Source: Seonamhaeicola algicola (GTDB taxonomy: Bacteria > Bacteroidota > Bacteroidia > Flavobacteriales > Flavobacteriaceae). Taken from it: DNA of 64,000 nt. The stretch lies in the NCBI RefSeq assembly GCF_007997385.1, contig NZ_VOSC01000012.1, positions 558,001 to 622,000 of the forward strand, in the 5' to 3' direction. Of the stretch, positions 9,850 to 31,379 are shown piece after piece. The position numbers were made by a program, and so were the translations under genes. How positions within the stretch are numbered: position 1 is the stretch's first letter; each line of letters begins with the position of its first letter. A model generated the notes under the pieces. It was not told the DNA's origin. It made no database searches and saw only the letters and a list, made by a program, of their open reading frames with translations.

Positions 9850-10311
9850 TTATTTAACTAGTTTTAGTAAAGCCATAACTACACCAAGGTGAATACCTTC
9901 ATGTAATAGCACAAAATTTAAAGCATCTTCAACAGTTTTTAAAGTATTTCCTGTTGTAGAAACAGTATATTCAGTATAATTTTTAAATAATCCAGTTTTA
10001 TAGTTTTCTTCAGATTTTTTTATAGAACTAATAACTAAATCTTTAATTACTTCAATTTCTTGTTGTGAAACATTACCTGTTGGTTTTGTGCCTTTTTTAA
10101 AGGCATTAATTAAATCATCAGAAACAGTTACAGGTAAGCCAGATAGCTTGTTAATTAATAACTGCTCAGAAACTACAAGGTGAGCAATATTCCAAATAAT
10201 ATTATTATTAAAACCTTTAGGTATTGTGTTTAATTGTGTTTCAGAAGCGTTATCTAAAATTTGTTTTAGCGCTTTTCTTACGTTTAATAATACGTCAAAT
10301 TGAAATTGCAT
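9850..10311 (-). CDS. DinB-like four-helix-bundle protein
   Basis: 153 residues, the usual length of the DinB/YfiT-like metal-binding helical family. Candidate metal-ligand histidines sit in WNIAHLVVSEQ and in LLHEGIHLGVVMAL, in family-like positions. Members of this fold include thiol transferases that use bacillithiol or mycothiol and proteins of unknown role. Substrate and partner are not deducible here. It is convergent with the barrel gene with a 6-base gap and is transcribed alone. Confidence 0.8.
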   Translation of the reverse strand: MQFQFDVLLNVRKALKQILDNASETQLNTIPKGFNNNIIWNIAHLVVSEQLLINKLSGLPVTVSDDLINAFKKGTKPTGNVSQQEIEVIKDLVISSIKKSEENYKTGLFKNYTEYTVSTTGNTLKTVEDALNFVLLHEGIHLGVVMALLKLVK

Positions 10312-10383
10312 GATATTTTTTTGGTAAATATAGTTTTAAATGAAATAAATGCCTGTATTTTTGTTGTAAATACTTCTTAATAC

Positions 10384-10734
10384 ATGAAAAAAGTATACTA
10401 CTTAAAAACGTGTAATACTTGCACTAGAATTTTAAAAGAATTAAATCTATCGTCAGAGTTTATACTTCAAGATATTAAATCTGAACCAATAACTGTAGCA
10501 CACTTAGAGGCTATGGAACAACTATCAGGCAGTTATGAAGCCTTATTTAGTAAACGTTCAAAGCTATACAAAGAAATGGGTTTAAAAGATCAAACATTAA
10601 CTGAGCGCGATTTTAAAAACTACATTTTAGAGCATTACACTTTTTTAAGCAGACCCGTTTTTATTATTAATGACCAAATTTTTATTGGTAATTCAAAAAA
10701 GAATGTTGAAGCTGTAAAAGCGGCTTTAACGTAA
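10384..10734 (+). CDS. ArsC/Spx-family thioredoxin-fold protein
   Basis: 116 residues with a CxxC active site at Cys10-Cys13 (LKTCNTCTRIL) and the ArsC-family C-terminal strand FLSRPVFIINDQIFIG. The family covers glutaredoxin-dependent arsenate reductases and Spx-like regulators. A true ArsC uses a single catalytic Cys with three arginines. The CxxC pair and absence of ars neighbours make arsenate reduction only one possibility. A TATTTTTG -7-like box lies at 10356-10363. The stop codon abuts the stop of the esterase gene on the other strand. Confidence 0.75.
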   Translation: MKKVYYLKTCNTCTRILKELNLSSEFILQDIKSEPITVAHLEAMEQLSGSYEALFSKRSKLYKEMGLKDQTLTERDFKNYILEHYTFLSRPVFIINDQIFIGNSKKNVEAVKAALT

Positions 10735-11535
10735 TTATTTGTACTTGTTGAAGAATTTTAAAGTTTTTTCAACATGTGTTATCCAATAAGGCCATTCATG
10801 TCCGCCATCAAATTCTTCATACTCATGCGCTATATTTAAGTCGTTAAGTTGTTTGTTAAGTAATCTATTTGGCTCAATGAGTTCATCTTTAACTCCGCAA
10901 TCAAATCTTAACTTAGGTAAGTTGCTTTTGTTTAATTTAATACAATCAATTACATTGGGTAAGCTGGTATTATTGGTGTAAGCTTCTAAAGGTTCTTCAA
11001 CAAATAAAGCCATTTGTTCTAGTTTAGTAATAGAACTATGCCCTGAAACAGCTTTAAATTTTTCAGGAAATTTAGCACCTAAACTTAGCGCACCATAACC
11101 ACCCATTGAAAGCCCGCCAATACACGTTGAGGTTGATTTTTTTGCTTCAGGAATGTTTTCTTTTACAGCAGTTACTACATCATTCACAATCCAGTTATCA
11201 AAGTTTTTAGAGTGGTGTGAAAAATAGGCAGACCCATCGCCCCACAAACCGTCAGAAGGCATTGCAATAATAGCTGGTTCAATGGTTTTACTAGTTATAA
11301 GTTTTTCGGCGGCTTTATGTGCGCCACCTTTTAAAGCCCAAATCCATGCGCTACCATAAACACCGTGTAATAAAATATAAATAGGAAGGTTGTTTATACC
11401 TTTTTCAACTTTAGGTACATACAAACAAATATCTCCACGCCCCTGTAAGCTTGGTGTTTTTATGGTTAGAAAACGAAGTCCTTGAGATTCAAAAGGTACA
11501 TCAGAAAGTTCTACAGTTTTAAAACTTGAAGCCAT
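10735..11535 (-). CDS. Cytoplasmic alpha/beta-hydrolase of the esterase D / S-formylglutathione hydrolase fold family
   Basis: 266 residues with no signal peptide. The oxyanion region is YILLHGVYGSAWIW (53-66). The nucleophile is Ser143 in GGLSMGGYGA, with the acid at Asp212 or Asp217 (FDCGVKDEL) and the base at His246 (GGHEWPYW). This is the esterase D-type fold (PF00756), which includes S-formylglutathione hydrolases, carbohydrate esterases and feruloyl esterases. It is the last gene of the P450-ferredoxin-reductase-ADH-GH2 operon, 2 bases after the GH2 stop. Acting on a formyl-thiol adduct from P450-made formaldehyde is an attractive role. A sugar acyl esterase is equally possible from sequence alone. 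Confidence 0.8.
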   Translation of the reverse strand: MASSFKTVELSDVPFESQGLRFLTIKTPSLQGRGDICLYVPKVEKGINNLPIYILLHGVYGSAWIWALKGGAHKAAEKLITSKTIEPAIIAMPSDGLWGDGSAYFSHHSKNFDNWIVNDVVTAVKENIPEAKKSTSTCIGGLSMGGYGALSLGAKFPEKFKAVSGHSSITKLEQMALFVEEPLEAYTNNTSLPNVIDCIKLNKSNLPKLRFDCGVKDELIEPNRLLNKQLNDLNIAHEYEEFDGGHEWPYWITHVEKTLKFFNKYK

Positions 11536-11537
11536 GT

Positions 11538-14048
11538 TTAGTTAACTTTTAATGATGAATTTGATGCTGTTAAATGTTTTGATTTTACTGCAATAGTTAT
11601 ATTTCCGGGGGTTGTTGATTTTACAAATATAACAGCTTGCCCATTGAATAATTTACGTTCAGGTTTTGATAAATTTTGAACATTAGTCGGGTCTCCATTA
11701 CCAGAAGCTAAAAAATTAGCGGCGCCATTAACAGAAATACTCATATTTTCATTGTAGTTTACACACAAGTTGCCGTTTTTATCTAGTACTGAAATAACAT
11801 AAACTCCAACTTCACCATTTTTTATAGTTGATAATTCGCTTTCAATTTTAATACTGCTTGCTTCTCCTGATGTAGTTCTTATGGTTTCATCTATTTTTTG
11901 TCCTTTTTTATTATATGCAACTATTTTTAGCTCTCCTGGTTCATAATTAACGTTTTCCCAAACAATAGCGTAAGCTTTTAATTGCGCCATAGAGGTGCCT
12001 CCAGAAGCTTCTTTATGTATGTTGTTAGCTAAAAATTCGGGTGTTTCATTATGTTCTTTAGTTTTAATGCCATAGCTTTTACCGTTTACAAACAATTCAG
12101 CTTTATCATAAGTTGTATAACATACTACAGGTAGAGTTTTGTTTTCCATTTCAGGTAAAGTCCAGTGAGGAAAAACATGTAAGACCTCTTTATTATTATT
12201 CCATTGGCTTTGGTATAAGTAAAACTTATCTTTTTCTAATCCAACTATATCAACAGGTGCAAAGTATGAGCTTCTTGATTTTGCTGTATGATAAGGCGAT
12301 GGTTCTCCTAAATAATCATAACCTGTCCAAACAAATTCACCATAAACAAAATCGCTATATTCTTGAGCAGCAAACTCTTTAAAAGGAGCATAACCCCAAG
12401 GAACGTTAGTGTTTTCATAATTTCCAGGATGACCGTCTTTATAAAGTTTTACATTTGCTGATGCGCCTCTTTTATTTTGAACAGTATCAAAAACTACAGG
12501 AAATTTATAAGAGTTTCTGGTGCTTAAAGCACCACCGGTTTCACTAGCATAGAATTTTAAATTAGGATAATGTTCTCTAATTTTATGGTATATACCAGGT
12601 TTATAGTTAAAGCCAGCTACATCCACGGTTGAAGCCATACCGCTTTCTAAAGCATTGTTAGCTGAGTTAAACCCAGCAGTAGTTGCACGTGTTGTATCAA
12701 TAGATTTTACAATATCATTTAAAAACTTTGTAATGTTGTTTGGGTCTTTTTGATATTGTTCCATGATTTCATTACCAATACTCCACATAATTATAGAAGG
12801 GTGATTTCGATCTCTTAAAATCATATCAGTTAAATCGGTTTTAGCCCAATTATCAAAATGTTTTGCATAACCGTTTAAGGTTTTACCAATTTGCCATTCA
12901 TCAAAAGCTTCGTCAATTGCAAGAATTCCCATTTTATCACAAATATCTAAAGCTTCTGGAGCAGGAGGATTGTGAGAAAAGCGAATGGCATTTACACCCA
13001 TTTCTTTCATTTTTTTCATTTGACGTACAAAAAGCTCAGGATAAAAGGCGGCTCCTACAGGCCCAAAATCATGGTGCATGTTTACACCTTTAAATTTAAC
13101 TTTTTTATCATTTAAGTAAAAACCATCTAGATCAAAACGAATACTTCTAATACCAAATGGTGTATTATATGTGTCTATTTCTTTATCATCATCAAAAATT
13201 GTGGTTTTTAAGGTATATAAATTGGGGTTTTCAATACTCCAAAGTTGAGGTTTTGTAATGTTGAAATAATGACTTATTGTTTTTTCATTTTTAATTGAAA
13301 CAATTTCGTTTTCTGAAACAATGAGCTTCCCTTCGGTATCAAAAATTTCATTTTTTACAGTATAATTACCGTTGCCAACCAACTCTACTTTTGCATTAAT
13401 TAGAGCTTTTTTCTTTGTAATTTCAGGTGTTGTTACAAAAGTTCCCCATGTTTTAATGTGTGTATTATTGGTTTTAATTATAGATACTTTCCTGTATAAG
13501 CCAGCTCCGGGGTACCAGCGTGATTGACTATCAAAATTCTCTAATCTTACAGCTATTGAATTATCACCGGGCTTTAAGAACTTAGTTATATCAAAATAAA
13601 AAGAAATATACCCAAATGGACGCTCGCCCACATACTTGCCGTTTACATACACTTTAGAGTTGCTCATGGCACCATCAAACAGTAATTGTACTTTTTGTTT
13701 TATAGCTTTATCAGATATGTTGTAATTTGTTCTATACCATCCAATGCCAACATAAGGTAATGCGCCTGTTCTTCCTGTTCTATATCTAGGCTGTGTTTCT
13801 CCATCTTGAACCACCATAGTTAATTGTATGTCATGAGTGAAATCAAAATCTTCCTTCACAGCCCAATCATGCGGAATAGTTACAGTTTCCCAGTCTGTGT
13901 CATTAAAATTTTCTTGAAAAGCAGCACCATAATCATAGCTGCTAAATTTCCAATTTTTTAATAATTCAACAGTTCTAGACTGACTTTGAATTTGATAGAC
14001 ATAAAAAATTAATATAAACGAAAATAAATTTCGGGTGTGTTTAAGCAT
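11538..14048 (-). CDS. Secreted glycoside hydrolase family 2 (beta-galactosidase-like)
   Basis: 836 residues. A signal peptide (1-22, ending YQIQSQ) precedes the GH2 sugar-binding jelly roll (about 24-195, with GIGWYRTNY and VYVNGKYVGERPFGY), the immunoglobulin-like domain (200-305) and the TIM barrel (306-600, opening with FKGVNMHHDFGPVGAAF). The acid/base is Glu427 in MWSIGNEIME and the nucleophile Glu503 in FYASETGG. C-terminal beta domains follow. The signal peptide places it in the periplasm. In this locus it most likely removes a terminal beta-galactosyl or methyl-galactosyl unit from an imported red-algal oligosaccharide. Other GH2 activities (glucuronidase, mannosidase) cannot be excluded. 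Confidence 0.88.
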   Translation of the reverse strand: MLKHTRNLFSFILIFYVYQIQSQSRTVELLKNWKFSSYDYGAAFQENFNDTDWETVTIPHDWAVKEDFDFTHDIQLTMVVQDGETQPRYRTGRTGALPYVGIGWYRTNYNISDKAIKQKVQLLFDGAMSNSKVYVNGKYVGERPFGYISFYFDITKFLKPGDNSIAVRLENFDSQSRWYPGAGLYRKVSIIKTNNTHIKTWGTFVTTPEITKKKALINAKVELVGNGNYTVKNEIFDTEGKLIVSENEIVSIKNEKTISHYFNITKPQLWSIENPNLYTLKTTIFDDDKEIDTYNTPFGIRSIRFDLDGFYLNDKKVKFKGVNMHHDFGPVGAAFYPELFVRQMKKMKEMGVNAIRFSHNPPAPEALDICDKMGILAIDEAFDEWQIGKTLNGYAKHFDNWAKTDLTDMILRDRNHPSIIMWSIGNEIMEQYQKDPNNITKFLNDIVKSIDTTRATTAGFNSANNALESGMASTVDVAGFNYKPGIYHKIREHYPNLKFYASETGGALSTRNSYKFPVVFDTVQNKRGASANVKLYKDGHPGNYENTNVPWGYAPFKEFAAQEYSDFVYGEFVWTGYDYLGEPSPYHTAKSRSSYFAPVDIVGLEKDKFYLYQSQWNNNKEVLHVFPHWTLPEMENKTLPVVCYTTYDKAELFVNGKSYGIKTKEHNETPEFLANNIHKEASGGTSMAQLKAYAIVWENVNYEPGELKIVAYNKKGQKIDETIRTTSGEASSIKIESELSTIKNGEVGVYVISVLDKNGNLCVNYNENMSISVNGAANFLASGNGDPTNVQNLSKPERKLFNGQAVIFVKSTTPGNITIAVKSKHLTASNSSLKVN

Positions 14049-14071
14049 GGTTTTATTATTGTAGTTTAGTT

Positions 14072-15193
14072 TTAAAATGTGATAACACCTTTGGCGTTTC
14101 TACCTGCAAGCATATCATCAAATCCTTGTTGGAGGTCTTCAAGTTTATAGGTGCGCGTAATCATTTCTTCTAATATTAAATCGCCTTTTTCATATAAGGC
14201 TTCAAATTTTGGGAAGTCAATATCTGGTTTTGCTCCGCCATATAGTGGATTAATATATATTTTGTCCCATTCAAATAAACGCATATCAACAGTAATTTCT
14301 TCTTCAATACCACTTACTTGTACTGCAGTACCTGCATTACGTATCATGGCTAAAGGAGCTACTCCTAAAGCAGGAACTGCAGTACACTCAAAGGCATAAT
14401 CTGCGCCTCTGCCATTGGTCATACCTTTTACAATTTGGGCTGTATTTAATAAACCTTTATCGTTTTTATCTGCTAAAATAACATCAGTTGCGCCAAATTG
14501 TTTTGCCATTTCAAGGCGTTGCTCGTTAATATCAACAGCAATAATTTTTGCAGCTCCCGATATTCTGGCAGCTTGTACTACATTTAAGCCAACACCGCCG
14601 GTACCTAAAACTACTACTGTACTTCCCCATTCGGGCTTTGCAGTATTAAATACTGAACCACACCCCGTCATTACACCACAACTTATGGTTGAGGCGGCTT
14701 CAAAAGATAATTTCTTAGAGTTTTTCTTCACAACTCCCGAAGATCTTACTAAAGCATATTCAGAGAATGTACCTAAATTAAATGAGCGCTCAATAGGTTT
14801 TTGGTTTAGTGTTGTTGATTCAAAAGTTGGGTGTCCTCCAGAAATTTTTCCTGCATGACTTGCCATAACTGGAGAGTTACACTCACAAATATTTTGGTTT
14901 CCTATTTGAGATTGAAAGCTATCATATTTTGGTGTTGCCCAGTTTAAAATTACTTCATCACCAACTGCAACTTTTGTTACATCTGGCCCAATAGCCTCAA
15001 CAATTCCTGCGCCTTCATGCCCCATTACAATTGGCATTCCCCATGTTAATGAGTCATGATCTGTATGGCATATAGCTGCAGCTTTTATTTTTACTAATAC
15101 TTCATCTTTGTGTGGTGGATGAATTTCAGTTTCTACAATGGAGAAAGTTCCATCACCAGGTGCAACTGCTGCTTTACATTTTATTGTACTCAT
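14072..15193 (-). CDS. Zinc-dependent medium-chain alcohol dehydrogenase of the 6-O-methylgalactose module
   Basis: 373 residues. Catalytic zinc ligands are Cys42 (AICHTDH), His59 (GHEGAG) and Cys172 (SCGVMTG). The NAD(H) Rossmann motif GTGGVG is at 197-202, followed by AVDINEQRLE. It resembles class III (formaldehyde) dehydrogenases in overall sequence. The structural-zinc lobe is eroded: the usual CxxCxxC is replaced by PKYDSFQSQ (88-96), leaving only cysteines near NICEC. Related ADHs next to demethylating P450s in Formosa and Zobellia were reported not to oxidise formaldehyde yet to be needed for growth on 6-O-methyl-galactose. This gene fits that group by neighbourhood. It lies 7 bases after the reductase gene. 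Confidence 0.85.
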   Translation of the reverse strand: MSTIKCKAAVAPGDGTFSIVETEIHPPHKDEVLVKIKAAAICHTDHDSLTWGMPIVMGHEGAGIVEAIGPDVTKVAVGDEVILNWATPKYDSFQSQIGNQNICECNSPVMASHAGKISGGHPTFESTTLNQKPIERSFNLGTFSEYALVRSSGVVKKNSKKLSFEAASTISCGVMTGCGSVFNTAKPEWGSTVVVLGTGGVGLNVVQAARISGAAKIIAVDINEQRLEMAKQFGATDVILADKNDKGLLNTAQIVKGMTNGRGADYAFECTAVPALGVAPLAMIRNAGTAVQVSGIEEEITVDMRLFEWDKIYINPLYGGAKPDIDFPKFEALYEKGDLILEEMITRTYKLEDLQQGFDDMLAGRNAKGVITF

Positions 15194-15200
15194 AAATATT

Positions 15201-16445
15201 TTATATAAAATTATTTGGTTTAAAGGGAATTGTTATATCCTCTAACTTGCTTTTATTTATTTTTTGACCAGACTTAATGAATTTTGTACCTAACATATAG
15301 GCTTTAGGGTAATTTACAGCGTCAACTGCAAGTAATTTATCATCTTTAAAATACCAAGCTGAAAAACTATTTTGAGTTTCTTCTTTTCGTATAACTATTT
15401 GATTATAACCATTTGAAAGGCCTACCATTTGTAATTTCACATCAAATTGGTCAGACCAAAACCAGGGTATAGTGTTATATACAGTATGTGCCTCTCCACA
15501 TATTGCTTTTGCGGCTGTTTTAGCTTGATCAACTGCGTTTTGTACAGATTCTAATCTTACATTAGTTTTATAATGTGGATTGTAATGATACGTACAATCT
15601 CCAATGGCGTAAATATGTGCATCATTGGTTCTTGCAGTTTTATCAACTTTAATACCATTTTCAATGGTTAAACCTGCTTCTTTAGCCAATTCAGTATTTA
15701 CTTTTATGCCTACACCAACTACAATTAGGTCGGCCTGATATGTTGAGTTATCATTACAAACAACAGTATTATATGCACCATTGTTTTCAATTGAAACAAC
15801 ATTTTTACCTGTTAAAATATCAACACCTTTGCTTTTGTGTAGTTGTGTGAAAAATTTAGACATTACCGGTGCTGTAACTCTAGCTAAAATGCGCTCTTCA
15901 CGTTCTAAAACAGTAACATTAGCTCCTAATTTTTTTAGTGAAGCAGCCGTTTCTAAACCTATATAACCACCACCAATAACAACTACACGTTTTTGTTGTG
16001 AAGTGTTAAAAGCATTTCTAATATTAACAGCATCTGCAGCAGTTCGCATTGGGAACAGATTTTTGGCTGTATCAATACCTTTTATTGGCGGAATAAAAGG
16101 GCGTGCGCCAGTTGCAATAACAAGCTTGTCATACTTTTGAACCGTGTTATCACTTAGGTTAACTAATTTTTTGTTTCTGTTAATGCTTTTTACAGCAACA
16201 CCAAGTTTTAAAGTAATGTTGTCATCTTTATAATTTTCTTTTGGAAATAATAAACTTTGCGATGTACTATCTTCACTTGTTAAATAAGCTTTTGATAATG
16301 GCGGGCGATGATACGGAAATTCTGTATCAATATCATATAAAATTATAGCGCCTACCCAACCTTCTTTTCTTAATGCAAATGCCAAATTTACACCAGCATG
16401 ACTAGCACCAATAACTACACAAACCTGTTCTTTGGTTAAAGACAT
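15201..16445 (-). CDS. FAD-dependent NAD(P)H:ferredoxin reductase for the P450
   Basis: 414 residues of the putidaredoxin/rhodocoxin reductase type. The FAD-binding motif is VVIGASHAGVNLA (10-22), followed by the conserved HRPPLSKAYL (46-55). The NAD(P)H motif is VVIGGGYIGLETA (155-167), and the second FAD site is HIYAIGDCTYH. It takes electrons from NAD(P)H and passes them to the [2Fe-2S] ferredoxin encoded 5 bases upstream, which reduces the P450. Linkage of P450, ferredoxin and reductase in one operon makes the partner assignment strong. Confidence 0.92.
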   Translation of the reverse strand: MSLTKEQVCVVIGASHAGVNLAFALRKEGWVGAIILYDIDTEFPYHRPPLSKAYLTSEDSTSQSLLFPKENYKDDNITLKLGVAVKSINRNKKLVNLSDNTVQKYDKLVIATGARPFIPPIKGIDTAKNLFPMRTAADAVNIRNAFNTSQQKRVVVIGGGYIGLETAASLKKLGANVTVLEREERILARVTAPVMSKFFTQLHKSKGVDILTGKNVVSIENNGAYNTVVCNDNSTYQADLIVVGVGIKVNTELAKEAGLTIENGIKVDKTARTNDAHIYAIGDCTYHYNPHYKTNVRLESVQNAVDQAKTAAKAICGEAHTVYNTIPWFWSDQFDVKLQMVGLSNGYNQIVIRKEETQNSFSAWYFKDDKLLAVDAVNYPKAYMLGTKFIKSGQKINKSKLEDITIPFKPNNFI

Positions 16446-16450
16446 ATGTT

Positions 16451-16759
16451 TTATTTAGCAACTTTTAAAATGAGGCCGTCTGGTACTTCATTTACTTGAA
16501 GTTGGCATGCTAATCTGCTATAATCACTTACGTTATCATCAAATTCAAGCATGTCACTTTCAAGTTCGCTTGGTGCGCCAACGGCACCCCAAAATGCTTC
16601 GTTTACATGTACGTGGCATGTAGCGCAAGAGCAAACACCTCCGCAATCACCATCAATACCTTTTACTTTGTTTTTTACAGCTAATTCCATAACGTTGCCT
16701 GTAGTGCCTTCTGCAACTATAGTTTCGTTATCACTTGTTATAAATGTTATTTTTGCCAT
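16451..16759 (-). CDS. [2Fe-2S] ferredoxin, putidaredoxin type (P450 redox partner)
   Basis: 102 residues, typical for adrenodoxin/putidaredoxin-type ferredoxins. The cluster ligands follow the CX5CX2C ... C pattern: Cys39, Cys45 and Cys48 in DCGGVCSCATCHVHV, then Cys85 in LACQLQ. The acidic surface around residues 65-80 (SELESDMLEFDDNVSDY) is expected for docking to the reductase and the P450. It lies between the P450 (17 bases upstream) and the reductase (5 bases downstream) in the same operon. Confidence 0.94.
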   Translation of the reverse strand: MAKITFITSDNETIVAEGTTGNVMELAVKNKVKGIDGDCGGVCSCATCHVHVNEAFWGAVGAPSELESDMLEFDDNVSDYSRLACQLQVNEVPDGLILKVAK

Positions 16760-16776
16760 TTTCTCTTTTTTTATTT

Positions 16777-17937
16777 TTATAGTTTGTTGAATGTAACGTG
16801 AATACTATCAAAGCCTACTTTACGTTTAAATTCATCTAAATCTTCAATGTTTTCTTTACATTTTATAATTTCCATGGTGCCTACTTTTTCGGCAAGTGTA
16901 GTTAATAGAATTTTCATTATTTGGCGGGCATGAGTAGCGCCTAAACAATTGTGTGTGCCAAAACCAAATGCTACGTGCGGATTTACTTTTCGGTCTAAAA
17001 CCACATCATTAGCATTTTCAAATACACGTTCATCTCTGTTAGCCGATGCCCAACACATAGATATTCTGCTTTGTGCTTTTATGGCATGTTCGCAAACGTG
17101 TGTATTTTCGGTAACTACACGCCCCATTTGAGTTAATGGCGAAAAGTAACGTATTAACTCTTCAATGGCTGTGTTTAAAATTTCGGGTTCATCGCGTAAG
17201 CGTTGTAATGATTTTGGATGATCTGCAAAATAAGCAATAGCGTTGGTTACAGCATTAATTACCGTATCTCTTCCGCCAGCAAATGTTAAAATTAAAACAC
17301 CTTTAACTTCTTCTTTGGTAAGTTTTTTACCATTAATTTCTGATGCTAGTAGCACTGAGTATAAGTCGTTGCCAGGGTTTTCAATGGCTTTATCAATTTG
17401 CGCATCAATATAATCATAAAGTATGTTGGCTTTGTCGCCATCTAAAGCAGTATCTTCACTTCTAAATACGTGTGTTCCCCATGAAATCCAAAGGTCTGAT
17501 TCTTCAAAAGGAATATTTAAAAGTAGTGTTAAGGCTCTAGATTGTAATTTTAAAGCAAATTCTTCAACCACTTCTAAGGTGCCTTTGTTTAAAGCTTCAT
17601 CAACTACATTATTTATAATTTGGGTAAGTTTGGCTTGGTAATTGGCCTCTAAAGGGCGCTTAAACCAAGGTTCAACTAAATCTCTATAGCTTTTATGTTC
17701 TGGCGGATCTACTTCAAATGGAATTTGGCGTGTGTTTCTAATATGAACTTCAGAAGGCACTACAATTCTGCCTACTTCATCGCCACCAGACTGGAAGGTT
17801 TTCCAGTTATGTGCACATTTTCTAACATCTTTATGGCCTAAAACCATAACTACAGGATCATTTTGGTCATCCATTTCGCCAAAACCTTTGCTTTCTCTGG
17901 CTTCTTTAAACGGATCTGAAAGTGTGCTTTTTTTCAT
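16777..17937 (-). CDS. Cytochrome P450, probable 6-O-methyl-D-galactose demethylase
   Basis: 386 residues, a class I bacterial P450. The I-helix oxygen-activation motif is FAGGRDT (219-225), the ExxR pair is Glu260-Arg263 (EELIRYFSP), and the haem loop is FGFGTHNCLGATHAR with Cys331 as the thiolate ligand. Soluble, no signal peptide. P450s of this operon type in porphyran-degrading Flavobacteriia oxidise the 6-O-methyl group of D-galactose, releasing D-galactose and formaldehyde. The assignment rests on gene order (P450, ferredoxin, reductase, ADH, AraC) and the adjoining SusCD pair, not on a substrate-specific residue. It is the first gene of the six-gene operon. Confidence 0.85.
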   Translation of the reverse strand: MKKSTLSDPFKEARESKGFGEMDDQNDPVVMVLGHKDVRKCAHNWKTFQSGGDEVGRIVVPSEVHIRNTRQIPFEVDPPEHKSYRDLVEPWFKRPLEANYQAKLTQIINNVVDEALNKGTLEVVEEFALKLQSRALTLLLNIPFEESDLWISWGTHVFRSEDTALDGDKANILYDYIDAQIDKAIENPGNDLYSVLLASEINGKKLTKEEVKGVLILTFAGGRDTVINAVTNAIAYFADHPKSLQRLRDEPEILNTAIEELIRYFSPLTQMGRVVTENTHVCEHAIKAQSRISMCWASANRDERVFENANDVVLDRKVNPHVAFGFGTHNCLGATHARQIMKILLTTLAEKVGTMEIIKCKENIEDLDEFKRKVGFDSIHVTFNKL

Positions 17938-17968
17938 TAGTCTTAATTTTATTTGGTTTGTTTTAAAA

Positions 17969-18000
17969 GTGTTTTGTGCTTAAAAATTAAAGCAAAACAC
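17969..18000. repeat. Inverted repeat in the P450 operon leader or promoter
   Basis: GTGTTTTG-T-GCTT (17969-17981) faces AAGCAAAACAC (17990-18000) across a short AT loop, with a two-base bulge on the left arm. It lies about 32-63 bases upstream of the P450 ATG. It could be a leader hairpin or an operator. It has no T run, so it is not a terminator. Confidence 0.4.
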
Positions 18001-18126
18001 ATTTTATAGTTTACAAATATTATTATTAAAAACATATGATAATTATCTTATTTTGTTTAATAAGTAAACTATTTTGCGGTGTTTTATTGTTTTTATGCGT
18101 ATTATTAACATAATAAATCATTTAAA

Positions 18127-18142
18127 GTGTATAATTGTACAC
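18127..18142. promoter_or_regulatory. Candidate operator between the P450 operon and the araC gene
   Basis: A 16-base near-perfect palindrome, GTGTATAATTGTACAC, with a single mismatched pair, 44 bases upstream of the AraC-type gene's ATG in the 249-base divergent spacer. Its position suits control of the regulator itself and of the P450 operon. The cognate protein is unknown. Confidence 0.4.
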
Positions 18143-18186
18143 TGTTTGTTTAGAATTGATGTATTTTGATCGGCTATTTTTAAGTT

Positions 18187-19023
18187 ATGAAACCAGTTTT
18201 AGAACATATTAAATTAGGTGAAAAACGCTCTATATTAGCGTATAAATATAGTGGTGAAGATTTTGATGCGCCTTGGCATTTTCATCCGCAGCATGAACTA
18301 ACGTTTATTACAAAAAGTACTGGCACGAAGTTTATTGGCGATTATGTGGGCTCATATCAACCTGGAGAATTGGTGCTTTTAAGATCATATTTGCCACATT
18401 GTTGGAAAAATTTACAGGAACAAAACGAAATGCCAGAGTCTATTGTAATACAATGGAACAAAGGTATTTATAATAGAGTGCCTGAATTAGAGGCTTTATT
18501 TAATATGTTAAGAGCAGCATCTAGAGGTATTTTATTTTCTAAAGACACAGTAAAAGCATTAAAGCCAAAAATTGAAGCATTATTACATTTAGAAGGGCAG
18601 GCACTTTATTTAAATTTGCTTGAGTTGTTATTGGCGCTTGCTGCATGTGATTTTACATATTTATCAAATGCTAGTTTTGAAGATGATATTCCTACAGAGT
18701 ATGGTAGTAGAATGAGTAAAATTCATGATTTTATTGAAGCCAATTATCAACGTAAAATATTCTTAAAAGAATTAGCTGAGTTGGTAAGTATGTCTGAATA
18801 TTCGTTTTCACGTTTTTTTAGTAAAATGATGGGCCGTCCATTTTTTACGTTTTTAAATGAATACCGTATAAATATAGCAAGCAGAATGTTAATTGATACC
18901 GATTGGTCTGTGGCGCAAATAGGGTATGCATGTGGTTATGAGTCTTTAACCTTTTTTCATAAACAATTTAAAAAAGTTAAACATGTTACCCCCAAAAAGT
19001 ATAGGAGTAAGCACAAAGCATAA
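18187..19023 (+). CDS. AraC-family transcriptional regulator
   Basis: 278 residues. The N-terminal cupin sensor domain (about 1-140) carries PWHFHPQHELTFI. The C-terminal domain (about 178-276) has two helix-turn-helix motifs: FLKELAELVSMSEYSFSRFF and WSVAQIGYACGYESLTFFHK, then HVTPKKYR. It is transcribed away from the P450 operon and towards the 3' end of the SusE-like gene. The cupin pocket probably binds a sugar released by the pathway, and control of the P450 operon is likely. AraC genes accompany the demethylase module in related bacteria. Confidence 0.92.
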   Translation: MKPVLEHIKLGEKRSILAYKYSGEDFDAPWHFHPQHELTFITKSTGTKFIGDYVGSYQPGELVLLRSYLPHCWKNLQEQNEMPESIVIQWNKGIYNRVPELEALFNMLRAASRGILFSKDTVKALKPKIEALLHLEGQALYLNLLELLLALAACDFTYLSNASFEDDIPTEYGSRMSKIHDFIEANYQRKIFLKELAELVSMSEYSFSRFFSKMMGRPFFTFLNEYRINIASRMLIDTDWSVAQIGYACGYESLTFFHKQFKKVKHVTPKKYRSKHKA

Positions 19024-19025
19024 TT

Positions 19026-19059
19026 AAAAAAGGAAGCTGATAAAGGCTTCCTTTTTTTT
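19026..19059 (+). terminator. Rho-independent terminator of the araC gene
   Basis: A 12-bp stem (AAAAAAGGAAGC / GCTTCCTTTTTT) with an 8-base loop and T tract starts 3 bases after the AraC stop. Confidence 0.85.
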
Positions 19060-19072
19060 GAAAATCAAATCG

Positions 19073-19093
19073 CAATTTACAGCTTGTAAATTG
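19073..19093. repeat. Perfect 9+3+9 inverted repeat downstream of the SusE-like gene
   Basis: CAATTTACA - GCT - TGTAAATTG forms a perfect 9-bp stem with a 3-base loop just 6 bases beyond the SusE-like stop on the minus strand. It lacks an immediate T run, so it may be an mRNA 3'-end-stabilising hairpin or a weak terminator. Confidence 0.5.
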
Positions 19094-19098
19094 TAAAC

Positions 19099-20682
19099 TT
19101 ATGGTCTGCTTGTTAATTTAAACAGTGTTAAGTCATCAATATAAAATTTAAGTCTATCTGTATTATCATTAACACCTCTTATCATGTAACTAACATCACC
19201 AGAAGCGGCAAATTGCACAACTGCAGATGAGTAGAACCACTGCCCAACAGGTGTGGTAGTAGTAAATGTAACGTTATCACCAATACCCCAATTTGTTCCA
19301 GGATTCCAGTACATTCTAATATTTGCTTCACCAGTTATATTACCTAAATCTTCAATATACACCCATACACCCATTTCATAATTTACACCAGATTCTACAA
19401 GAAATGTAATGTCTTCATTATCATTATTTCTATGGCCCATAATCATCCCTCCATTTGGTCTAAACTCAATATACATGCTTTTACTACCAGTGTGTGCTCT
19501 ATCAAAAGAGAGGTTATAATCATATTCGCCCCATCTGCCGCCCCACCAAAGGTATGGCCAATTGCTATCTTCAGTTGTTTCAAATGAATAATCAATATCA
19601 GTTTCTTCAAGTACGTTAGTTTTAATAAAATCTGTTAAAACAGCACCTGTAATGGTTGTTGCCGCAACAGCATCCATGGTAGCTAGTGTTCCTGGAGTGT
19701 ATGATATTTTTACAACATCATCATTATACATAATTTCATTTGCAAGTTCTACTTGTAAAATATTACCCTCGTTAGCATCAACAGTTACGCTAGCTATTTC
19801 AGGATTTATCACAGCGCCACCAGCCGTTTCAATAGCTACCGAGAAGTTGTTTTTATTAACGGTTTCTGGGTTCATTTCTCTACTAAACTCTAAACCTATG
19901 GTTGTTTGGTATTCTTTTTCAAAAACACGATCTAATGTTACGGGTTCTGTTGAAGGAATTACTTTAATAAAGTTTTTAAGTGATATGGTATCAGCATCAC
20001 CGGGTCTGCTTCTAGAGGCTATGTATTGCAAATCCCATGAGCCTAATTTGCTAAATCTCATATCAACTTCGGTTTCTTCACTAGTTGTAATTGATGTTGG
20101 TTTTCCTCCTGCCGATGACCATACAATTTCATCGGGAGCACCAACAGCAGTGTATGTTAATCTTATAAATTCACTAGCTGTAATTTCATTTTCGGCATTG
20201 TCAGTCATTGTTAATTCATTGCCTGTAGAGCCATCGTCATTTATATAGTAAGCTTTAATGTTAGATTCTACCCAATCTAGTACGGTTACAACAATTGTTG
20301 TATCTAACTCTCGGGTTGTGTTTGGTACTGTGCTGTTTTCATTTGGGTACACATCGCCTTTAAAGGTTTGATTTAAAGTTACATTATAAACACCGGGTGT
20401 GTTAAAAATACCTTTAACAACATTTTTAGTTGAAGTATTACCATCTTCACCAGAAATACGAGATACATTTTCAGGAAATGTCCAAGTTCTACTTTGAACG
20501 CCTTGAGATAAATCGCCAAAATCAATATGACCTCCTGGGTTTATGGTGTTATCAAAATTCATTTCAGAAGTTACAATAACTCTGTGGTTGGGCTCTGTTG
20601 TGCTAATGGAATCGTCTTCAAAACAACTTACAGCAATGGTAGTTGTTAAGATTAACATGATTAATAATTTTATATTTTTCAT
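19099..20682 (-). CDS. SusE/SusF-position surface glycan-binding lipoprotein
   Basis: 527 residues with a lipoprotein signal and lipobox Cys20 (TTIAVSC). A PKD-like domain (about 35-140, with DFGDLSQGVQSRTWTFPE and GVYNVTLNQTF) is followed by Ig-like domains (about 140-345, one of the kind with TTIGLEFSREMN). A C-terminal jelly roll (about 350-527, with HTGSKSMYIEFRPNGG and FYIDDLTLFKL) resembles CBM4/9-type carbohydrate-binding modules. It is encoded 15 bases after the SusD gene, the usual place of a surface glycan-binding protein. The ligand is inferred to be a galactan fragment from the neighbouring catabolic operon. The sequence family is not a classical SusE match. Confidence 0.8.
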   Translation of the reverse strand: MKNIKLLIMLILTTTIAVSCFEDDSISTTEPNHRVIVTSEMNFDNTINPGGHIDFGDLSQGVQSRTWTFPENVSRISGEDGNTSTKNVVKGIFNTPGVYNVTLNQTFKGDVYPNENSTVPNTTRELDTTIVVTVLDWVESNIKAYYINDDGSTGNELTMTDNAENEITASEFIRLTYTAVGAPDEIVWSSAGGKPTSITTSEETEVDMRFSKLGSWDLQYIASRSRPGDADTISLKNFIKVIPSTEPVTLDRVFEKEYQTTIGLEFSREMNPETVNKNNFSVAIETAGGAVINPEIASVTVDANEGNILQVELANEIMYNDDVVKISYTPGTLATMDAVAATTITGAVLTDFIKTNVLEETDIDYSFETTEDSNWPYLWWGGRWGEYDYNLSFDRAHTGSKSMYIEFRPNGGMIMGHRNNDNEDITFLVESGVNYEMGVWVYIEDLGNITGEANIRMYWNPGTNWGIGDNVTFTTTTPVGQWFYSSAVVQFAASGDVSYMIRGVNDNTDRLKFYIDDLTLFKLTSRP

Positions 20683-20697
20683 AATTCAAACAATTTT

Positions 20698-22428
20698 TTA
20701 GTTATTCAAACCGTCATTGGTTTGTACTTCGCCATTTGGAATAGGGAAGTAGTTATGTTGCAATGGGTTGTAATTTTGAGATGCCAAGAAAAAATCTGGT
20801 CTTATTCTTTCATTTATAAATAGAGGTTCAACGCCACCATTACCAACTTGTAATACTGTGTCTTTGTTGTTTTCTCTCCAAATTTCATCGGCACGTAACT
20901 CATCAAAAACTTCTTTTACTATACCCCAGCGTACTAAATCTTTCCAACGGTGCCCTTCAAAACAAAGTTCTACGGTTCTTTCAACACGTTGTATATGGGT
21001 TAAAACAGTTTGAGCGTTAGCTGGTACTAATGGTTGTGTGCCGTGTACTTGTTTGCTAATATGTAATTGAGGAAACATACCGCCATTCATATCCATGTAT
21101 TGTTGAAGTGTGTAAACACCAGCGCGTTTTCTAACCATATCAATATATTCAATGGCTGTTGCGTAATCTCCACTAGCATTAATAATAGCTTCAGCATACA
21201 TTAATAATACATCGGCATATCTAATATGCCTAAAGTTAATACCAGATCTTGACAGTGCTGGTTCTGCAGGTAAATGATACCAGTTAGAGTGTTTTTTTAC
21301 ATAAGCACTTTGCCCAAAGCCCCAACCACGTGGTTCGCCTTGGGGAAGTTGATAGTATAAGCCTTCAAAATTACTTGGCGCTATGGTGGCATTCATTCTT
21401 CTAGATTCTAGGTTGCCATCATTAATAGGATTGTTTGGATCTACTTCATCATTTACCAACATTTCATGTAAGTTATATGATGGCAGCACAGTATTAAAAG
21501 CACCAAAGTTTAATTGTCCAACGGCGGTTGCCATGGCGGTAGATTCTGCACCTGATTCAAAAGCATTATCATCAACAACAGATCCAGGTACACCAGGTGC
21601 TATATCAAAAGAATAATTTACTTCAAAAATAGATTCTTCATTAAATTCATTTTCATGCCAAAAATTATCAGTAATGTCTCTTGTAAGCGCATATACATCA
21701 GAATCTATTACTTGTTTGAAAAGAGTTGCTGCTGTTGGCCAGTTTTCATCATATAAATGCACTTTACCTAATAATGACGTAGCGGCTCCCCAAGTTGCAC
21801 GCCCAACATTTTTGTTATCCCAGGTTTGTGGAAGGTTTTCAATAGCAAATTGTAAATCTGGAATTATTATAGTTGTATTTACATCATCAATAGAAGAAAA
21901 AGGTTTGTTGAAGTCTTCAAGCCCTTCAGCAACTTCATTATGTATTACAGCACCACCATATGTGTGTGCTAATTGAAAGTAGAAAAACGCTCTTAAAAAA
22001 CGCGCTTGCCCTTCAATTTCGGCTTTAGCGTTACCATTAAAAACTGTTGGGTCTGCTTGTTGTATAAACTGAATAACTTGGTTAGCCCTAAAAATACCTA
22101 CGTATAATTGGTCCCATTTATCGGTAATGTGATAAATTCCATCATTATAAGTTAAATTTCTGAATGCATTTGGACGATACCAAGATTCTGTTCCGGCAAT
22201 ATCACCTAAAACAAACTCATATTGAAGTTCGCCACCGCTTACACTTGGAAATTGCAGCGCGCCGTAAACTGTTGTTAGGGCACTGTTAAATTGTTTTTCA
22301 GATTGCCAAAAGGTTTCTGTTGTAATGGCATTAGGGTTAATTTCCTCAAGAAAATTACTTTCATCGCAGCTTACAAATGCAAGCATACTTAAGAAAATTA
22401 AGCTTAAAATTTTATTATATATTTTCAT
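20698..22428 (-). CDS. SusD/RagB-family nutrient-binding outer-membrane lipoprotein
   Basis: 576 residues with a lipoprotein signal (lipobox LAFVSC). SusD hallmarks follow: NFLEEINPNAITTETFWQSE, helical TPR-like segments with ARFLRAFFYFQLAHTYGG, the RHIRYADVLLMYAEAI block, and the terminal NPLQHNYFPIPNGEVQTN. It forms the lid of the SusC transporter and captures oligosaccharides at the cell surface. It lies 17 bases after the SusC gene and 15 before the SusE-position lipoprotein in one operon. Confidence 0.95.
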   Translation of the reverse strand: MKIYNKILSLIFLSMLAFVSCDESNFLEEINPNAITTETFWQSEKQFNSALTTVYGALQFPSVSGGELQYEFVLGDIAGTESWYRPNAFRNLTYNDGIYHITDKWDQLYVGIFRANQVIQFIQQADPTVFNGNAKAEIEGQARFLRAFFYFQLAHTYGGAVIHNEVAEGLEDFNKPFSSIDDVNTTIIIPDLQFAIENLPQTWDNKNVGRATWGAATSLLGKVHLYDENWPTAATLFKQVIDSDVYALTRDITDNFWHENEFNEESIFEVNYSFDIAPGVPGSVVDDNAFESGAESTAMATAVGQLNFGAFNTVLPSYNLHEMLVNDEVDPNNPINDGNLESRRMNATIAPSNFEGLYYQLPQGEPRGWGFGQSAYVKKHSNWYHLPAEPALSRSGINFRHIRYADVLLMYAEAIINASGDYATAIEYIDMVRKRAGVYTLQQYMDMNGGMFPQLHISKQVHGTQPLVPANAQTVLTHIQRVERTVELCFEGHRWKDLVRWGIVKEVFDELRADEIWRENNKDTVLQVGNGGVEPLFINERIRPDFFLASQNYNPLQHNYFPIPNGEVQTNDGLNN

Positions 22429-22445
22429 AATATTTTTTTTATTTT

Positions 22446-25400
22446 TTAGAAACTTAACTGTACACCTAGCATGAATTGGCGGGTAACAGGGTAACTACCA
22501 CTATCTATACCTCGTGTAAATAAACCATCGCCACCAACTTCAGGGTCGTAACCAGTGTAGCTAGTAAATGTAAATGGGTTGGTTGATGTTAAAAATACTC
22601 TAGCTTTATCAATGCCTGTAGCGTCTTTAATGCCGGGAATTGAGTAACCTAAGGTTAGTGTTCTAATTCTTAAATATGAACCATCTTCTAAGAAATAATC
22701 AGAGGCAGCTCTAACATTACTATGAAATGCGTTTTGCCTAAATGTAGGAACGTTTGATGTTGGGTTTTGTGGGCTCCACATGTTTACTAAATCTATGTGC
22801 CTGCCTGCTGTATAGGCATATAGTTTGGCGCCGTTGTAAATTTCTGTGCCGCCAACGTAGTATCCTTGTATATCAAAATCAAAATTTTTATACTTTAGGT
22901 TTAGGTTTAAACCGGCTTCAAATTCTGGTTGCCCAGATCCAGAATAAACTCTGTCTTTATCATCAATTTTACCATCGTTATTAGCGTCTTTATACATTAA
23001 ATCTCCTAATTGAGGTGTACTTACGCTGCTTAAATCAAGTTGATTATATTCATCAAGTTGTTCTTGGGTTTTAATAACACCATCATTTTGAAATAAAAAG
23101 AAAGCACCAGCTTCATAACCCTTAGCTAAAAAGGTAGTGTATTCAACATTTTCACCTCTAGAGGCAAGTGGCCTACCGTTAGCATAGCCTCTTTCAATAC
23201 CATTTAAATCTGTTACTTCGTTAGTATTTGTTGTAAATGTTCCTGTAAGGCTAAATTTTAAATCGCCAATACTGTTTTTGTAGCTGGCAGCTAATTCAAC
23301 ACCACGGTTAAACATATTACCTGCATTAATATTTATAAAGTTAAATTGTGAAGCAGCTCTTGGCTGATGTGTACCAGATGAAGGGGCAATGCGTTGTTGT
23401 AATAGCATATCTTGCTTATCATTTTGGTATACATCGGCAGTAATATTAAGTCTGTTTTTAAACATAGAAAGTTCAATACCAATGTTTTTTGAAACTGTTG
23501 TTTCCCAAAAAATATCAGATGCATAACGTCTTTGAACCGAGCCAAACTGCAAATCTTCATCAAAACCAAAAGGATAGTTAATGCCGGTTTCAATAACGGG
23601 TTGGTATGAATAATCAGAAACGCCTTCATAACCTAATTCTGCCCAACTACCTCTAATTTTTAATGCGTTTATAAAAGGCAGGTTAAACCAGTTTTCTTCG
23701 TGTACATTCCAACCAGCTGAAAACCCATAGAAATTACCATATTTATTGTCACTAGAGAATTTTGAAGAGCCATCGCGCCTGTAACTAGCCGATAGTAAGT
23801 ATTTTTGGTTATAATTATACTGTACTCTAGCAAGTTTACCTGCTAGTGTTCTGTTAATATTATATGAGTTAGGTTTAATACCTTCGGCACCAGCACCAAG
23901 TGTTTGTATATCATTACTTGCGTTTTCATCATAAATAACACCAACGCCTACAGTCCTAGATTTAAATCTTTCATATGACATTACACCTAATACATTTAAA
24001 TTATGTAAACCAAAACTTGTTGAATAATTAAGTATATGTTCTATAGTTTCTCTTTTTGTGAAAATATAGTCTTCATCTAAAGTTGCTTGCGGCCTAGAGG
24101 CAGTAGCATTGTATACGCCTTCTCTAGAAAAGGCTAAATATTGCGGTTGGAAGAATCTTCTAAAATAATTCCATTCATTTCTACCAAGGTTTAGTTTGTA
24201 TTTTAAACCTTTTAAAACTTCATATTCTAAGTTTAAAGCAATGTTGTTTGATTTTACTTCGCGTTCATCAACATTATCTAATTGTCTTGATAAAAAACTA
24301 TAAAATATTTCATTACCAACATCAAGTTCAACGCTATTTTGACCCACATTTGGAATAGAGTTAAGCGGTCTTGCCCAAGGCGATTGCCCAATAGCATATT
24401 CATACAATGCCCATGGTTCTTGAGTTCTGTTTTCAGTGGTCATTCCTATGGTAGCAAATGCTTTAAATTTTCCTTTTGAAAACTGTCCCGTAATTCTGCT
24501 TGATAAACGATCAAAACCAGAGTTAATTAACACACCATCTTGTTTAAAATAGTTGGTTGAAAAGTTAAAGGTTAAATCTTGCATGCCACCCGAAATGTTA
24601 AGGTTTGCATTTTGTATTATGGCATTGTCATTTTGAACATCGGCAACAAAATCTGAGTCATAATCTAAGGCATCAGGTTGAAAGAAGAATGTTAAAGGTT
24701 CTGTACCTAATTGTTGTGTAGTAACTTCTAGGTTGTATAATTGTTGTGTGGTATTCATTAAAGGTGTGCCTGAAGTAATGTTTTGAATACCTGTATATGT
24801 AGATATATCTACTTTCATATTACCAGATTTTCCTTTTTTAGTGGTAATAAGTATTACACCACCAGTAGCTCTAATACCATAAATAGCTGCCGAAGCACCA
24901 TCTTTTAATATATCTATAGACTCAATTTGTTCTGGCGGAATGTTTGGGTTGCCTTCTTGCGGAATATTATCAACAATATACAAAGGCTCGCCACCATTAA
25001 TTGAGGCTAAACCACGAATTTGTACGTTTGACGACTCTCCGGGTCTACCGCTGGCAGCTTGTATATTAACACCTGCAACTTTACCTTGTATGGCAGCGCC
25101 TAAATCTGCAACAGGTGCTTTTACAATTTCATCGGCGCTTACTTTAGCAACTGCACCAGTAACTTCTTTCTTTTTCTGGGTACCATATCCTACAACTATT
25201 ACTTCTTCTAGTTTAGATAGGTTTTCTTCTAAAGTAACATTAAGTGTTGTTTTACTACCAATGGTAACCTCTTTGGTTGTGTAGCCAATAAAGCTGAATA
25301 CTAAAACATCATTAGTATTGGCGGTAAGCTCATAGTTTCCATCAAAATCTGTGGCGGTTCCTTTAGTAGAACCTTTAACTAAAATGGTTACGCCTGGTAA

Positions 25401-25538
25401 TGGAAGTCCGCCATTAGCACTAACTACTCCTTTTATAGTTTTACTTTGGGCATTAATGCTTCCGCAAACGAGAGTAAACAAAGCAAAGTAGAGGGTGTAC
25501 TTAAAACTTTGTTTAAAACAAAAGTTTAATTTCATCAT
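22446..25538 (-). CDS. SusC/RagA-family TonB-linked outer-membrane transporter
   Basis: 1030 residues, the normal SusC size. A signal peptide (about 1-30, ending SINAQ) precedes the carboxypeptidase-like domain (GVTILVKGSTKGTATDFDGNYEL) and the SusC-specific TonB box/plug start LEEVIVVGYGTQKKKEVTGAV (split around residue 115). The plug contains NVQIRGLASINGGEPLYIVD and YGIRATGGVILITTKKGK, and a barrel with C-terminal RQFMLGVQLSF follows. It imports oligosaccharides using TonB energy together with the SusD lid. It is first in a three-gene operon divergent from the TPR-HTH regulator. Confidence 0.95.
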   Translation of the reverse strand: MMKLNFCFKQSFKYTLYFALFTLVCGSINAQSKTIKGVVSANGGLPLPGVTILVKGSTKGTATDFDGNYELTANTNDVLVFSFIGYTTKEVTIGSKTTLNVTLEENLSKLEEVIVVGYGTQKKKEVTGAVAKVSADEIVKAPVADLGAAIQGKVAGVNIQAASGRPGESSNVQIRGLASINGGEPLYIVDNIPQEGNPNIPPEQIESIDILKDGASAAIYGIRATGGVILITTKKGKSGNMKVDISTYTGIQNITSGTPLMNTTQQLYNLEVTTQQLGTEPLTFFFQPDALDYDSDFVADVQNDNAIIQNANLNISGGMQDLTFNFSTNYFKQDGVLINSGFDRLSSRITGQFSKGKFKAFATIGMTTENRTQEPWALYEYAIGQSPWARPLNSIPNVGQNSVELDVGNEIFYSFLSRQLDNVDEREVKSNNIALNLEYEVLKGLKYKLNLGRNEWNYFRRFFQPQYLAFSREGVYNATASRPQATLDEDYIFTKRETIEHILNYSTSFGLHNLNVLGVMSYERFKSRTVGVGVIYDENASNDIQTLGAGAEGIKPNSYNINRTLAGKLARVQYNYNQKYLLSASYRRDGSSKFSSDNKYGNFYGFSAGWNVHEENWFNLPFINALKIRGSWAELGYEGVSDYSYQPVIETGINYPFGFDEDLQFGSVQRRYASDIFWETTVSKNIGIELSMFKNRLNITADVYQNDKQDMLLQQRIAPSSGTHQPRAASQFNFININAGNMFNRGVELAASYKNSIGDLKFSLTGTFTTNTNEVTDLNGIERGYANGRPLASRGENVEYTTFLAKGYEAGAFFLFQNDGVIKTQEQLDEYNQLDLSSVSTPQLGDLMYKDANNDGKIDDKDRVYSGSGQPEFEAGLNLNLKYKNFDFDIQGYYVGGTEIYNGAKLYAYTAGRHIDLVNMWSPQNPTSNVPTFRQNAFHSNVRAASDYFLEDGSYLRIRTLTLGYSIPGIKDATGIDKARVFLTSTNPFTFTSYTGYDPEVGGDGLFTRGIDSGSYPVTRQFMLGVQLSF

Positions 25539-31369: not shown

Positions 31370-31379
31370 AATTTTAATT

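Follow-up and report, generated by a model that had tools for sequence, protein, structure and literature searches.

A probable cassette for the uptake and O-demethylation of methylated galactan fragments in Seonamhaeicola algicola and its recurrent alcohol dehydrogenase-esterase pair

Background

Gene clusters for the demethylation of 6-O-methyl-D-galactose (G6Me) have been described from marine Flavobacteriaceae, reportedly also by Reisky (2018) and Robb (2018), two studies known to us through their citation in Brott (2023). Here these clusters are compared with a locus in a 64,000-nucleotide stretch of the Seonamhaeicola algicola genome (assembly GCF_007997385.1, contig NZ_VOSC01000012.1, positions 558,001 to 622,000; hereafter the window, whose own numbering is used), in which genes for a cytochrome P450, a ferredoxin, a ferredoxin reductase, an alcohol dehydrogenase (ADH), a GH2 glycoside hydrolase and an esterase lie beside a SusC/SusD pair. 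The first three of these genes, the ADH and the esterase are common to the window and to the G6Me clusters of Formosa agariphila and Zobellia galactanivorans, and the P450, its redox partners, the esterase and the ADH also cluster in Polaribacter, Maribacter, Arenibacter and others (PMC10033563). In Formosa agariphila and Algibacter lectus, GH2 and GH16 genes are placed between the ADH and the esterase (PMC10033563); the cassette in the window has the GH2 in the same place without their GH16. It differs further from the Formosa/Zobellia cluster in the adjoining block of SusC, SusD and lipoprotein genes and in an ADH without a structural-zinc site.

The locus is therefore a variant of a known cassette. 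On balance it probably serves, under regulation, to take up and O-demethylate methylated galactan fragments, which the same bacterium probably makes with enzymes encoded elsewhere in its genome, and the ADH and esterase would form a separate two-step unit. What is new is the pairing of this ADH and esterase with two oxygenases, an apparently swapped and zinc-poor ADH, and a conserved block between the regulator and P450 genes. The task of the ADH in growth on G6Me has so far been unexplained, and the ADH-esterase pattern makes it testable.

Sequence samples and searches

The Seonamhaeicola algicola genome comprises 3.7 Mb in 32 contigs. Relatives of the P450 were collected in a single scan of genome contigs using the window P450, from which 217 were confirmed and the best 80 of 217 were kept as named loci; the same P450 found no relatives among viral contigs. 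An ADH was counted as present in a fetched stretch at ≥ 60% of its length. Gene distribution was determined in a family sample of 397 Flavobacteriaceae genomes (E up to 1e-100 for the P450, 1e-110 for the ADH, and 1e-60 for oxygenases of the PhyH family). Pfam scanning covered 40 of the 52 listed open reading frames (ORFs) of the window, and 9 of the remaining 12 are nested inside larger ORFs.

The demethylation core

All named ORFs were located on the minus strand. The cassette itself consists of the following genes:

16777..17937, minus strand: cytochrome P450, orthologue of the Zobellia/Formosa 6-O-methyl-D-galactose demethylase (652 bits to 6g5o, full length)
16451..16759, minus strand: [2Fe-2S] ferredoxin, the presumed electron carrier to the P450 (PF00111)
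15201..16445, minus strand: FAD ferredoxin reductase (PF07992 and PF14759)
14072..15193, minus strand: zinc ADH of the FoADH/ZoADH group (560 bits to 8h2a, 542 bits to 8h2b)
11538..14048, minus strand: GH2 enzyme with a signal-like N-terminus (by eye), probably an exo-beta-galactosidase (PF02836, PF02837, PF00703 and PF18565)
10735..11535, minus strand: alpha/beta-hydrolase esterase, partner of the ADH (PF00756)

These genes are separated by 17, 5, 7, 23 and 2 bases. Coordinates and spacing agree with the initial annotation, which had described six closely packed genes beside susC, susD and a lipoprotein gene, and its gene names are backed by Pfam and NCBIfam except for the lipoprotein. The P450 module, GH2 and esterase, which it had called fused, are merely adjacent.

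The structure 6g5o, which we take to be the Zobellia P450 enzyme, far outscored the next PDB match of the window P450 (161 bits). By this difference the P450 belongs to the methyl-galactose group, as had been proposed, and an affiliation with steroid or terpene hydroxylases, named at the outset as the finding that would overturn the proposal, does not apply. The window P450 is 63-87% identical to 27 orthologues in the family and 89% identical to that of a Seonamhaeicola metagenome-assembled genome. Homologues of the ferredoxin and reductase follow the P450 in 80/80 kept loci (77 without overlap and 3 in which the end of the P450 is overlapped by the called ferredoxin ORF), so the arrangement is not due to chance. 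When the ADH was searched against characterised enzymes, as first recommended, it grouped with the marine ADHs 8h2a and 8h2b; judged by length, cysteine motifs and the published description, these structures (listed in the PDB only as ‘Alcohol dehydrogenase’) are probably FoADH and ZoADH. At the level of sequence, the P450 and ADH are orthologues of the Zobellia/Formosa G6Me enzymes, a core finding that was already known.

The order P450-ferredoxin-reductase-ADH-GH2-esterase recurs in Tamlana fucoidanivorans, Algibacter lectus and Tamlana sp. (L078, L081 and L083), in which the ADHs have four structural cysteines and are 68-69% identical to that of the window, the esterases are 57-60% identical, and no homologue of the window SusC/SusD is present in the fetched stretch. 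A GH2 > 50% identical to that of the window was found in 13/80 kept loci, each with an ADH and an esterase in the fetched stretch. Together with the published Formosa/Algibacter layout, these 13 loci make the gene order of the window a known one. P450 orthologues are also present in Flavobacterium saccharophilum, F. potami and F. fluviatile (L125, L149 and L153), which, from the species names only, suggests use of methyl-galactose outside the sea.

In the proposed mechanism, oligosaccharides would be imported by SusCD, and the GH2 would take off terminal galactose or G6Me. By analogy with the characterised systems, the P450, ferredoxin and reductase would then convert G6Me to galactose and formaldehyde. 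The ADH and esterase are put together like the ADH/S-formyl-thiol hydrolase pair of thiol-dependent formaldehyde oxidation; their substrate would be something that the P450 and, in relatives, a PhyH-type oxygenase both produce, most simply formaldehyde with a putative carrier.

The ADH-esterase pair and its two oxygenases

An esterase gene follows the ADH gene on the same strand in 59/59 kept loci holding an ADH (≤ 400 bp apart in 45, with overlapping ORF calls in 1, and with a GH2 between them in 13). The same arrangement was found in 13/13 further loci without an adjacent P450 (12 P450-less genomes and one genome with the ADH and P450 on separate contigs), giving a total of 72/72 loci that hold an ADH. 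Within the family sample, the P450 was found in 28 genomes, the ADH in 40 and PhyH in 40. The ADH was present in 28/28 P450-positive and 12/369 P450-negative genomes. All 12 ADH-positive P450-less genomes (10 genus codes) have PhyH, versus 21/357 ADH-negative genomes (Fisher 3e-14, kinship not corrected). In these P450-less genomes PhyH adjoins the pair in 7/12 and lies within 6 kb in 1/12; in three named Zobellia loci and in Ulvibacterium it comes after P450-ADH-esterase. Among 44 PhyH homologues (from fetched loci, some overlapping), an H-x-D and a distal H are kept at the 97% level, which we take to be the motif of Fe/2-oxoglutarate enzymes. No other oxygenase was recognised among the proteins scanned near the four P450-less loci without an adjacent PhyH (contexts scanned in part).

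The two kinds of locus are also linked by a direct comparison. Flanks of the locus L204 (from the P450-less genome G217) and of L117 (Ulvibacterium marinum), which share a genus code, align at 79-85% DNA identity. L204 lacks the P450-ferredoxin-reductase stretch of L117 and retains the AraC gene, operator core, ADH, esterase and PhyH, so that the two differ by a natural deletion or insertion. On a tree of the ADHs, those with no P450 alongside are dispersed, and the state of having or lacking a P450 in the locus changes 8 times, with at least 6 changes forced by starred branches (73 rows, quick method, some long branches).

Esterase residues Ser143, Asp217 and His246 are invariant in 45 aligned sequences and probably form the catalytic triad. 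Its AlphaFold model had a predicted local distance difference test score (pLDDT) of 93. Its constant position suggests that the esterase works with the ADH and is less likely to be a glycan esterase. A known counterpart would be glutathione-dependent formaldehyde oxidation, which pairs a zinc ADH of the same superfamily with a PF00756 esterase of apparently similar fold. The window ADH and esterase are the genome's best matches to class III formaldehyde dehydrogenase and S-formylglutathione hydrolase, but both fall far below the family cut-offs (ADH, 212.6 bits to TIGR02818, cut-off 543.95; esterase, 33.5 bits to TIGR02821, cut-off 281.7). No HPS, PHI, class III formaldehyde dehydrogenase or S-formylglutathione hydrolase exceeded its cut-off in the genome, in a search that left aside folate-linked, FdhA-type and bacillithiol routes. 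The ribulose monophosphate route, the one linked to porphyran use in Zobellia, was considered as the formaldehyde sink of this genome and set aside on the HPS and PHI profiles. Since HPS exceeded its cut-off in only 5/28 P450-positive Flavobacteriaceae genomes, that route is unlikely to be the usual sink in this group, if the one-enzyme proxy holds.

Because the ADH and esterase accompany two unrelated oxygenases, we infer that they handle the common product of both, most simply formaldehyde. It is a tentative proposal, short of an even chance, that they form a carrier-dependent formaldehyde module behind two unrelated sugar O-demethylases, that PhyH is a new class of carbohydrate O-demethylase, and that a zinc-poor ADH replaced the original in the window lineage. 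PhyH would accordingly be a candidate second enzyme class for sugar demethylation; among open-access papers, none was found that ties it to polysaccharide use or sugar O-demethylation.

Several observations weigh against the formaldehyde assignment. FoADH and ZoADH showed no formaldehyde activity with glutathione, mycothiol, bacillithiol or the other thiols tried, they prefer aromatic aldehydes and have a narrow pocket, and their authors conclude against formaldehyde detoxification (PMC10033563). A fold search with the esterase model ended in a tie between S-formylglutathione hydrolases and ferulic acid esterases, so the predicted fold does not separate them, and the low score of the esterase to TIGR02821 belongs here as well. 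In 21/80 P450 loci there is no ADH in the fetched stretch; at least 6 of these are on short contigs, and in L126, one of the 21, the ADH runs off the contig end. Another of the 21, L123, has an esterase homologue and no ADH in the fetched stretch. PhyH lies away from the ADH-esterase pair in 4/12 P450-less genomes, Zobellia uliginosa (L112) has no adjacent PhyH, unlike three other Zobellia loci, and no PhyH was found at E 1e-60 in the Seonamhaeicola algicola genome itself. Finally, PhyH occurs without an ADH in 21 genomes, several times beside hexuronate genes, and its substrate may for this reason not be a methyl sugar.

Among the fetched Flavobacteriaceae loci (L196-L207 and L239-L267), a number have a PhyH-family clade in hexuronate loci containing altronate dehydratase, KDPG aldolase, PfkB kinase and a mannitol-type dehydrogenase.

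The closest competitor is that formaldehyde is irrelevant to both the ADH and the esterase. The ADH would act on another aldehyde encountered in growth on algal walls, the esterase would cleave off acetyl or feruloyl groups, and the two would travel with the oxygenases through a shared algal diet. The aromatic aldehyde preference in the published assays and the hexuronate neighbours of PhyH in several genomes speak for it, as does the closest PDB sequence match of the esterase, a ferulic acid esterase, whose family the fold search could not set apart. It is nevertheless doubtful. A shared diet sits poorly with an unbroken pairing next to two unrelated oxygenases, with several gaps < 200 bases, and with the pair standing behind the same operator core in L204. 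The esterase has no signal peptide (by eye), and Zobellia grows normally on G6Me only with the ADH, a knockout of which harms growth on that sugar and spares growth on galactose (PMC10033563).

Zinc site and separate history of the ADH

Catalytic zinc ligands C42, H59 and C172 are kept in the window ADH, as in 59/60 aligned rows (the other row is short). The structural zinc of FoADH and ZoADH is held by cysteines 88, 91, 94 and 102 (PMC10033563). The corresponding positions in the window ADH are Lys89, Ser92, Ser95 and Cys103, so that three of the four cysteines are lost. All four are present in 57/60 aligned rows; the three exceptions, L147 (Ochrovirga), L129 (Aquimarina algicola) and the window, retain one each.

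With the ADHs of L147 and L129 the window ADH shares 92% and 87% identity, whereas the P450s are only 69% and 72% identical, and the ferredoxins, reductases, GH2s and esterases of these two loci are 59-66% identical to those of the window. In approximately unbiased (AU) tests, a clade of the window, L147 and L129 was rejected by the P450 data (p 3e-36), and the P450-supported clade was rejected by the ADH data (p 6e-95 with L077, 8e-140 without it). Since the 25 rows were picked from 59 with the trees already in view, these p values are too good, but the gaps in log-likelihood are large (196 to 300 units). Thus the ADH has a history discordant with that of the P450, as if it had been swapped, along with a loss of structural zinc ligands that is read from the alignment. 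The ADH genes of the window and of L147/L129 are 81% identical in DNA and 53-59% at third positions, which indicates that the swap is old. In L077, whose P450 is a close relative of that of the window, the ADH falls in the same wider clade and keeps all four cysteines; the swap may therefore predate the zinc loss, or have occurred more than once. Joint acquisition of the ADH and GH2 from one donor is unlikely, since the nearest ADH is in L147 (92%, the GH2 there being 65% identical) and the nearest GH2 is in L078 (78%).

Regulator and operator-like block

An AraC-family regulator gene, which the initial annotation did not include, separates the SusCD block from the P450 block:

18187..19023, plus strand: AraC-family regulator, divergent from the P450 (PF12833)
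18048..18076, minus strand: conserved operator-like block upstream of the P450, from an intergenic alignment, with the core CARAATAGTTTAYTTATT at 18059-18076

In all 19 named loci compared, a homologue of the regulator (57-87% identity) is oriented divergently to the P450. The AraC-P450 intergenic regions of the window and these 19 loci were aligned, which gave 29 columns ≥ 90% identical, versus 0-3 in 10 shuffled sets (shuffled in two-base blocks; the 20 sequences are related, so the contrast is overstated). The core is exact in the window. Allowing ≤ 2 mismatches in 122 loci, 23 sites were found, of which 19 precede a P450, 2 precede an ADH (L204 and a second site in L152) and 2 lie elsewhere. 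Loci used in deriving the core account for 14/19 P450-side sites, with 5/19 derivation loci below threshold, and 7/9 independent sites stand where the model predicts. The block at 18048-18076 may be bound by the AraC protein. As a point against the overall reading, the core was not found at 2 mismatches in 61/80 P450 loci. A shared operator for SusCD was also considered. The window has 3 sites (one exact and two with 3 mismatches) where 2.4 are expected by chance, so the further copies are at chance level and a common operator is not supported.

Import genes, GH2 and the source of the fragments

Beyond the regulator lie the import genes:

19099..20682, minus strand: lipoprotein-like protein in the SusE position, no family assigned (no Pfam/NCBIfam match)
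20698..22428, minus strand: SusD-like lipoprotein (PF07980 and PF14322)
22446..25538, minus strand: SusC-like TonB-dependent transporter (TIGR04056, 779 bits, above cut-off)

With a SusC/SusD pair (TIGR04056 and PF07980) and a carbohydrate-active enzyme (the GH2 domains), the locus qualifies as a polysaccharide utilization locus. The lipoprotein has relatives 80% and 50% identical in 2 named loci. Its earlier label of glycan-binding was a guess from gene position, and its AlphaFold model was poor (pLDDT 46) and not fit for a fold search. No inner-membrane sugar importer gene was seen in the cassette, which is a further point against the overall reading.

The GH2 scored 775 bits to the NCBIfam GalB model, under its cut-off of 900, and its best PDB match was 5t98 (637 bits). 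A weaker match, at 343 bits, was 5t9a, which is GH2C, an agarose exo-beta-galactosidase from Bacteroides uniformis (PMC5849685). A beta-galactosidase of the B. plebeius porphyran locus frees plain and methylated galactose (PMC12316285), which shows such release to be within reach of a GH2 and says nothing specific of the window enzyme.

The cassette might demethylate a methyl hexose other than porphyran G6Me, for instance one derived from agar or some other glycan. A joint match to SusC, SusD and the lipoprotein at ≥ 48% exists in only 2/80 kept loci (L077 and L079), so other cassettes may take up a different glycan, and the P450s of the three Flavobacterium species, for which a non-marine habitat is suggested by the names only, are 72-73% identical to that of the window. 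This reading is rather unlikely, given that the P450s of Zobellia uliginosa and Polaribacter porphyrae (both presumed porphyran users) share 74-75% identity with that of the window and that the genome carries its own relative of a 6-O-methyl-porphyranase.

That relative is a 287-residue GH16 on contig C3 (L073:19020-19883), which scored 368 bits to 8ep4 and 365 bits to the mutant 8ew1, followed by PorB at 81 bits, and which has sulfatase matches 3-14 kb away. The structure 8ep4 is BpGH16C, a 6-O-methyl-beta-porphyranase whose active site includes Glu145 and Asp147 and in which Gly132 leaves space for the methyl group (PMC12316285). The contig C3 enzyme has a Glu-Ile-Asp motif with a Gly 13 residues ahead of its Glu, the place expected for Gly132 (by counting, no structural alignment). 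Contig C1 encodes a 1369-residue GH86 with a CBM6 and a secretion tail, which has BpGH86A, a beta-porphyranase, as its nearest match (340 bits). For the remaining two GH86-domain proteins the nearest structures are 5ta1 and 5ta0 (best 70 and 140 bits), the latter being the GH86 of the B. uniformis agarose locus (PMC5849685). In total the genome has 34 sulfatase matches (33 over cut-off), 13 GH16 (11 open frames) and 3 GH86-domain proteins; all GH16 and GH86 exceeded the genome-search cut-off, and one of the two GH86-domain proteins near 5ta1 and 5ta0 was re-scored at 26.3 in Pfam (cut-off 27). With its own BpGH16C-like GH16, GH86 and sulfatases, the organism probably makes its own methylated fragments.

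The initial annotation had noted that the window contains no GH16, GH86 or sulfatase, which holds for the 40 scanned ORFs, and had concluded that this might be a minimal unit scavenging methylated galactosides freed by other species, which is very improbable in view of the porphyranase-like enzymes and sulfatases on other contigs. Its import-cleave-demethylate unit is retained in part: the group membership of the P450 and ADH agrees with it, and the scavenging of foreign fragments is not supported.

Neighbouring genes

DinB and ArsC-like neighbours (window 10041-11521) also align with L077 and L079, in which no GH2 > 50% identical was seen; the cassette thus seems to be at the same chromosomal site in these relatives. 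Elsewhere in the window, a gene for a GDSL-lipase-domain protein adjoins a TonB-dependent receptor gene on the same strand (29894-34223). The window also encodes two very long proteins that carry lectin or laminin-G domains, one of 1460 aa (44134-48516) and one of 1262 aa (48935-52723); the first has a weak match to a type IX secretion tail.

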